34,406 nucleotides of DNA from Fimbriiglobus sp. (GTDB lineage Bacteria > Planctomycetota > Planctomycetia > Gemmatales > Gemmataceae). The stretch spans positions 1-34,406 of the forward strand of contig JANXWE010000112.1 in the NCBI GenBank assembly GCA_025351325.1, written 5' to 3'. The stretch's first letter is position 1. Each line of letters begins with the position of its first letter. The translations under genes and the position numbers were made by a program. The notes beneath the pieces are model-generated. The model had not been told where the DNA came from. It ran no database searches and was given only the letters and a program-made list of their open reading frames with translations. Positions 968-4,030 of this stretch are shown piece after piece.

Positions 968-1453
968 TTATGGCGCGGGGACGGGAATCCACTCGCTGCC
1001 GTTTACTACAATAGTTTTGATCGGGGCGCCAAGTCCGTTCTGGAGTATGATCCTCATTTCGTATGTATAGGCGTTTGCATTATAGACGCCGATATTTATC
1101 GTGCCAAGATAAGACCCGTTGGCTAGATTAGCTACATTTCGGGTGATGCCTTGTTGCTGTTGTGCGTTCGGGTTGTTTTCTACGATGTTGAATCCATCTG
1201 GAGTGAGGGTTCTGAGCGTTGCGCGATTTGTTCTTCGAAGCGTGAGTCGAACTTGCAGAACTCCGGGAACGCCTGTGAAGTCTCCTGAGCATGCGACATC
1301 GTATGTGAGTGCCGCGTTTTTAATCGGCTTTCCGATTGTTGCAGTGCCATCCGGATCAGCTTTCACGTTTGAACTGCTAGCGAGAAATGCGAAGAGAGCT
1401 AGCGCGAGCACCGAGCACCGAGCACCGAGCACCGAGCACCGAACACCGAACAC
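968..1453 (-). CDS. Exported protein with heptamer-repeat 5' end (start uncertain)
   Basis: The frame encodes about 161 residues. A signal peptide-like stretch ([15 protein letters not shown], then NVKA|DPDG as a possible cleavage site) is followed by about 125 residues with no recognised domain, rich in Thr/Asn/Val and probably a beta-sandwich. The first codons fall inside a heptanucleotide tandem repeat. The in-frame start would be GTG at 1453, within the repeat and without a ribosome site. A better start, ATG CAA ATG at 1481-1473 (MQMTKLSV), is off by one base and in this sequence reads 34 residues to a stop at 1377-1379. Loss of one heptamer would join it to the signal peptide and mature protein. 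Base composition looks more AT-rich than the neighbours. It lies upstream of the DUF1559 gene and is probably co-transcribed with it. Function is not recognised. Confidence 0.65.
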
Positions 1454-1461
1454 CGAACACC
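1406..1461. repeat. Heptanucleotide tandem repeat, 8 copies
   Basis: Counting on the plus strand there are five copies of GAGCACC (1406-1440) followed by three of GAACACC (1441-1461), 56 bp without interruption. Read on the minus strand it is GGTGCTC/GGTGTTC. Because 7 is not a multiple of 3, each gained or lost copy shifts the downstream frame by one, while the repeat gives the same cyclic peptide ([14 protein letters not shown]) in every frame. It sits exactly between the good ATG (1475) and the signal-peptide core of the 161-residue exported protein. Confidence 0.95.
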
Positions 1462-1689
1462 GACAACTTAGTCATTTGCATCTGTCCGACTCCGTGGGAG
1501 AGGAATGTTGCCACATGGGAGTGTGGCCAACCAACGCAGGCTGTGAGTGCCAAGAACGTTGACTAATAGAAATTACTGCCTTGGAATCATGGCTGTCAAG
1601 CGAATTGCGGACTGTTCCAAAAGATTTGTCAGATTCAACATGAATAGCTTCCGATTCCGCGCTCGACGGCCGTCTCGCAAGTAAACAAT

Positions 1690-3301: not shown

Positions 3302-4030
3302 TTACGCGATTATTTGAGCGCCTTTCGCGGAGCGAGCCGAATACGGGGTCGGATCGTCCATCCCCGCTTCCGCGAAGCCGCGTTGCCGCTCCGCGCATTT
3401 GTTGCAGCGGCCGCAGTGGCGACCCCGCACCGGATGGATGCACGAGAACGTGTGTTGCAAGGGCATCCGTGCACCCCGTTTCAGCACGTCGGCTTTCGTC
3501 AATTCTAGCAGGGCATACGGTCGCAAAACACGAACATGTCCACGAACACTCCGATTCACCGCATTGGCCATGCCCGTGTAAAACGCCGGGGTGGCATCCG
3601 GGAAGGGATTCGAAGCCAGCGGTGCCGTGGCCAACTCGTGTACCCCATTGAGGTGGCACCAGAGCAGAGCTTTCGCCAGCAGAATCACGTTGCGACCGGG
3701 GAGGTAAACGGCGGCGTCGGCGGATTGTTCGTCCGGTGTTCCACGACCGGTCAAACTCCAATGTTCCCCGTAAAGATCACCGACGGGGAACGCGAGTTCG
3801 GTCAACGGTTTCAAGGCTGGAGTTCGCACCCCTTCAAGAAATTTTAAGAGGTGGTCGTGCTCAACCGATTCCCAGATGGCCCCGGTGCGAATCGAGATGG
3901 GATAGACCACCGGATAGGCCAGCAATGCTTCGCCGAGGAGGACGGCACTGTCCAACCCACCGCTGACAAGTACCGCCAGCGGTGCGGTGGCATTGGTCGG
4001 GGGCCAGTGATGAGTCAACGTGTCTGACAT
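3302..4030 (-). CDS. queC: 7-cyano-7-deazaguanine synthase QueC-like
   Basis: A 242-residue protein from ATG 4030 (the ORF is open to 4081, but MSDTL gives the normal length). QueC forms preQ0 from 7-carboxy-7-deazaguanine using ATP and ammonia. The PP-loop SGGLDS lies at residues 23-28. A PGRN motif (111-114) and the C-terminal zinc site (Cys197, Cys206, Cys209, Cys212 in CIHPVRGRHCGRCNKC) are present. The usual DYGQRH-type segment after the PP-loop is replaced by SIRTGAIWESVE, so this is a divergent QueC/ExsB-like branch. It is followed by queD. No ribosome site is obvious. A hairpin at 4056-4080 precedes it. queE and queF are not in the window. Confidence 0.85.
   Translation of the reverse strand: MSDTLTHHWPPTNATAPLAVLVSGGLDSAVLLGEALLAYPVVYPISIRTGAIWESVEHDHLLKFLEGVRTPALKPLTELAFPVGDLYGEHWSLTGRGTPDEQSADAAVYLPGRNVILLAKALLWCHLNGVHELATAPLASNPFPDATPAFYTGMANAVNRSVRGHVRVLRPYALLELTKADVLKRGARMPLQHTFSCIHPVRGRHCGRCNKCAERQRGFAEAGMDDPTPYSARSAKGAQIIA

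Follow-up and report, generated by a model that had tools for sequence, protein, structure and literature searches.

Does the number of copies of a short repeat decide whether a planctomycete makes one of its exported proteins? The question is raised by a locus in a 34,406-nucleotide stretch of Fimbriiglobus sp. (contig JANXWE010000112.1, positions 1 to 34,406), which as a whole is called the window below. On its minus strand, eight heptanucleotide units of the form GGTGYTC lie between an ATG preceded by a Shine-Dalgarno (SD) sequence (1481) and the core of a predicted signal peptide. The host is an uncultured planctomycete, and its assembly is a draft of 382 contigs. Most known cases of repeat-driven switching come from host-adapted pathogens. 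An initial annotation had read the locus as a contingency locus, in which copy number switches the exported protein on and off, and we followed up this reading computationally.

A heptamer array at the start of a gene for a predicted exported protein

The array is far beyond chance expectation. TRF recovered it as 8.4 copies of a 7-bp unit (1405-1463) with a score of 97, the runner-up array in the window scoring 50, and the longest exact self-overlap of period 4 to 12 in the window is 31 nt, against at most 13 nt in 40 first-order Markov simulations. TRF and a frame check bear out the eight repeats between the ATG and the signal-peptide core that had been annotated (Table 1). The unit is not divisible by three and sits within a coding start, and it encodes the heptapeptide GVRCSVL/F in every frame, as had also been noted.

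The consequences of copy number for the ATG frame are as annotated. With eight copies, the frame ends after 34 residues, and with seven or ten copies it joins the signal peptide and the exported protein. Joining copy numbers are 1, 4, 7, or 10 (n = 1 mod 3), with products of 161 amino acids at 4 copies, 168 at 7, and 175 at 10, while at 5, 6, 8, 9, 11, or 12 copies a stop follows after 22 to 41 amino acids. Gain or loss of units thus decides whether the ATG start shares the frame of the product. When seven units are removed and one copy is left, a canonical 25-residue signal peptide stands in frame with the SD-preceded ATG, as judged by sequence and hydropathy. This single-copy version is a textbook case, so the array probably arose when GGTGCTC was duplicated in tandem inside the hydrophobic core of such a peptide in an ancestor.

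The exported protein has a signal-peptide-like N terminus by hydropathy, with a hydrophobic core ending VKA↓D, and no domain match; products of contingency loci are usually, though not necessarily, exported or exposed on the surface. Its structure model is strand-rich and of low confidence (mean pLDDT of 49.5), too uncertain for a structure search. The downstream gene had been called prepilin-like, which its N_methyl and DUF1559/SBP_bac_10 domains support; it carries an SD-like sequence of its own. An Rfam search matched only the tRNA.

Table 1. Features of the locus in the window (all on the minus strand)
Feature	Positions	Remarks
Prepilin-like DUF1559 (SBP_bac_10) gene	1-924	Downstream; N_methyl and DUF1559/SBP_bac_10 domains; cut by contig end
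Exported-protein ORF, 161 codons	968-1453	From first in-array GTG (others at 1432 and 1411)
Predicted signal-peptide core and cleavage region	1358-1411	Hydropathy
5' module (about 145 nt of noncoding upstream DNA, array, signal peptide)	1358-1627	89% identical to C130 locus
ATG frame at eight copies	1377-1481	34 codons and TAG (1379-1377); out of frame with signal peptide
Heptamer array, 8 units	1406-1461	Gene sense (GGTGTTC)3(GGTGCTC)5
ATG start (ATG CAA ATG)	1479-1481	Second ATG at 1473-1475; same in paralogue L002 at 1624
GGAG, SD-like	1490-1493	8 nt ahead of ATG; conserved in paralogue
tRNA-Glu (TTC)	1749-1821	Upstream

A second copy of the locus in the same genome

The genome has a second copy of the exported and prepilin gene pair with the same layout, on contig C130 (L002). 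Its array consists of exactly eight units, all GGTGCTC, and SD, ATG, and frame relation are as at the window locus, so that both loci are out of frame for the ATG start. The 5' modules align over 271 nt with 89% identity and one 1-nt gap, and despite this 11% difference the SD and ATG are unchanged. The entire exported proteins, signal peptides included, are only 49% identical, yet all gaps are multiples of three and there are no stops. Intact open reading frames with in-frame gaps in both copies indicate that the signal-peptide-phase frame was kept under selection, and hence that there was translation of the genes during at least some of their history.

For the mature exported protein, dN is 0.61 and dS about 2.6, which is near saturation; for the prepilin genes, dS is about 0.8 to 0.95. 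Compared with the synonymous sites behind them, the 5' modules differ far less and were thus either homogenized later or strongly constrained, which suggests gene conversion or constraint on the noncoding DNA.

The two arrays differ in unit pattern, TTTCCCCC versus CCCCCCCC. There are three differences, all C/T at one unit position and in three adjacent 5' units, a clustering of T-type units with p = 0.0015 under independent point changes. Because the differences cluster in this way, turnover of units after the split of the two 5' modules is probable, and the array probably slipped.

What speaks most against a fast switch is that both loci have eight copies despite the 11% difference in their flanks, since hypermutable arrays should rarely agree, unless conversion or chance intervened. 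This agreement would say nothing about stability if eight copies were an assembly product or the outcome of gene conversion between the loci. That the 5' modules differ by 11% when dS behind them reaches 0.8 to 0.95 and about 2.6 is in keeping with such an origin, as is the fragmented draft; in addition, one contig of Gilliamella sp. Choc5-1 begins at an array of this heptamer, so assemblies can break at such arrays. However, an array of 56 bp is below the usual length of a short read and the unit patterns of the two loci differ, and we consider this explanation very improbable.

Start codons within the array

The ATG had been annotated as the only good start, but it is not the only possible one. 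GTG codons within the array at 1453, 1432, and 1411 share the signal-peptide frame, each with GGUG ahead, and their pairing with the anti-SD (-5.4 to -5.6 kcal/mol) is nearly equal to that of the SD of the ATG (-6.1 kcal/mol). Since pairing of -5 or better is reached by 26% of random positions, it is weak evidence for initiation. Judged from these codons, in-frame starts in the array could sustain protein synthesis at any copy number.

The main rival to a switch follows from this arrangement: the exported protein would start at an in-array GTG (1453 or 1432) at any copy number, with the array simply forming the signal peptide's n-region. A GTG, and a GGUG able to pair with the anti-SD, come with every heptamer, so starts are available in every frame. 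Both paralogues have open signal-peptide-frame reading frames from an in-array GTG at eight copies, and both genes are intact at this number. The product from GTG 1432 has positive charge and a good core, and in L002 the ATG-proximal Lys is replaced by Gln, so the Arg residues of the repeat would provide the charge of the n-region. Against this, the conserved SD-preceded ATG just upstream is in another frame and would make ribosomes traverse the array out of frame, and a GTG with a four-base SD is weak. The figure for random positions also counts against it. We regard a GTG start without any switch as rather unlikely.

No consensus sigma-70 promoter or terminator was found near the start. In the alignment of the two paralogues, most substitutions in the extension that they share ahead of the ATG change the amino acid, so this DNA does not look coding.

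Distribution of the gene and of the heptamer

Neither the exported protein nor its array turned up in 98 relatives, including three genomes of the same genus, and degenerate patterns for the protein had no match in 84,980 species genomes; no relative carrying another copy number was found in these searches. In the same-genus genome G002, the tRNA-Glu and a GDSL-lipase gene are syntenic and the exported and prepilin genes are absent at that place, so the pair is a local gain or loss. Within the genome of the host, GGTGYTC arrays are confined to the two paralogous genes, and looser matches are near the control level. No other heptamer array of at least four copies was seen in the 347 kb sampled from this genome, nor were further signs of repeat-driven switching in the sampled part.

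Beyond the host, a scan of species genomes found the heptamer in at least 118 places across many phyla, and in a sample of the phylum, 14 of 392 genomes had at least three exact units. Among the low-GC loci that could be classed, the arrays are mostly intergenic, with a few at coding starts. In a Chlorobiota metagenome-assembled genome (MAG) (L169; JAADHG010000159.1, about 3396-3427), seven units and then a lipoprotein signal come after ATG AAA CACC; the frame is out at seven copies, one unit from open, and would be in frame at 5, 8, and 11. Gilliamella sp. Choc5-1 has nine units after the in-frame ATG of an exported protein (L221), and in a paralogue (L170), 12 units are in frame with the protein, the start lying beyond the edge of the contig. 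In a Synergistaceae MAG (L196, 6067-6098), an intact family 2 glycosyltransferase gene has seven in-frame units just past its ATG.

Kapaibacterium SKW166 has many arrays of the GGTGYTC heptamer that are apparently intergenic (L164, L199, L222, L226, L227, L229, L236, and L242), several of them with the same CGAAAACTATTA or CGAAAACTTTTA sequence behind them. A genome related to the host has an inverted pair of heptamer arrays facing each other about 40 nt apart (G106:C23:5409-5503).

In related genera, short arrays from the unit family of the window array, read as CRARCAC (L019-L047 and L072-L101, from family relatives, mainly of genus g17), are oriented: they have an ATG-started open reading frame 3 to 29 nt downstream in 18 of 27 distinct cases on the CRARCAC strand, compared with 2 of 27 on the opposite strand and 14% at random positions. 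These short (CRARCAC)n arrays directly before an ATG are likely a 5'-leader element, comparable to the TAACTGA repeats of Beggiatoaceae. Membership of the window array in this class was rejected on position and orientation: arrays of a 5' leader lie between promoter and start codon, and the window array lies downstream of the SD-preceded ATG. If the true start were an in-array GTG, part of the array would come to lie ahead of the start.

The cases at coding starts raise the possibility that GGTGYTC is a recurrent contingency heptamer that, independently in Planctomycetota, Chlorobiota, Gilliamella, and Synergistaceae, came to act as a reading-frame switch between the start codon of exported or surface-related genes and the rest of their coding sequence. 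As neither strand of the unit contains a stop codon in any reading frame, it would be usable in either orientation. We think this generalization doubtful.

The same distribution bears on neutral expansion, according to which a slippage-prone, recurrent heptamer grew in a dispensable signal peptide without regulatory role, in genes weakly expressed or being lost. Similar arrays, most of them away from coding starts, are scattered over Planctomycetota and many other phyla; no homologue of the protein was detected in the other genomes searched, and the gene pair is missing from the syntenic place in G002. But both reading frames have stayed intact despite strong divergence, all gaps keep the frame, and the array sits at the same point in both gene copies and nowhere else in the genome; we hold neutral expansion to be unlikely.

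A candidate copy-number switch

The best-supported reading is that copy number controls the ATG frame, in a strict or a graded manner, with a probability of about 0.42 in our estimate. It is favored by the frame arithmetic and the single-copy signal peptide, both read directly from the sequence, the retention of the SD-preceded ATG and of the mature frame in the paralogue, the probable turnover of units, the confinement of such arrays to the two genes within this genome, and the presence of the same heptamer at starts elsewhere. A strict on/off switch is made less likely by the equal copy number and by the in-frame GTG codons of the array. Further points against the reading are that the 347 kb sampled held no other array of four or more heptamers and that the searches of relatives gave none with another copy number. 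In RNA folding, the array did no better than shuffles (z = +1.5), which does not help to choose between a switch, a GTG start, and neutral expansion.

Under copy-number control, the ancestral signal peptide would have begun at the ATG at 1481, with one GGTGCTC of its hydrophobic core duplicated in tandem. Slippage would then alter the number of units (its rate, switching, and any benefit are inferred), and the SD-driven ATG frame would enter the exported protein only at n = 1 mod 3. In the strict form, copy number would decide whether the protein is made and exported; in the graded form, it would set how strongly, with the weak in-array GTG starts as a fallback. Polar effects on the prepilin-like gene are possible. 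The sequenced population would be fixed, or in its majority, at eight copies, the out-of-frame state.

Of the contingency reading in the initial annotation, the architecture has held up, with a logic like that of Opa and neuO which makes switching plausible by analogy; the eight copies in the paralogue as well and the GTG codons in the array speak against it. The locus is therefore best described from its architecture as a candidate, and not a demonstrated, contingency locus.

The Opa proteins of Neisseria have CTCTT repeats in the region coding for the leader peptide (PMC3960869, PMC3899988), and their variation is proven, at about 1e-3 per cell per generation (PMC3960869). As in Opa, a non-triplet repeat lies in the stretch that codes for the signal peptide of an exported protein and copy number sets the frame; unlike the Opa pentamer with its proven variation, the window locus has a heptamer with in-array GTG codons and shows no variation in copy number from its paralogue. 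In neuO of Escherichia coli K1, a prophage-borne acetyltransferase gene, the heptanucleotide AAGACTC is present in 14 to 39 copies in phase-on strains and switching has been observed (PMC8653822). The window locus resembles neuO in that a heptanucleotide array stands at the 5' end of its coding sequence and that one class of copy numbers in three is in frame, but it encodes a small exported protein and has eight copies, duplicated with the same number. Short heptamer arrays recur in unrelated bacteria, among them the TAACTGA direct repeats of Beggiatoaceae, often at gene starts (PMC4679880), and the heptameric repeats of Xanthomonas and Nostoc (PMC4692102). These are mostly intergenic, whereas the window array is inside a coding start, in an orientation opposite to that of the 5'-leader arrays of related genomes. 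A search of the literature available for planctomycete phase variation and the GGTGYTC heptamer returned nothing relevant.

The paralogue pair and the Chlorobiota case are ready-made tests, and the GGTGYTC heptamer is easy to search for. If it works, a heptamer switch for this pair of exported-protein and prepilin-like genes would extend repeat-driven switching to an environmental planctomycete with a larger genome.
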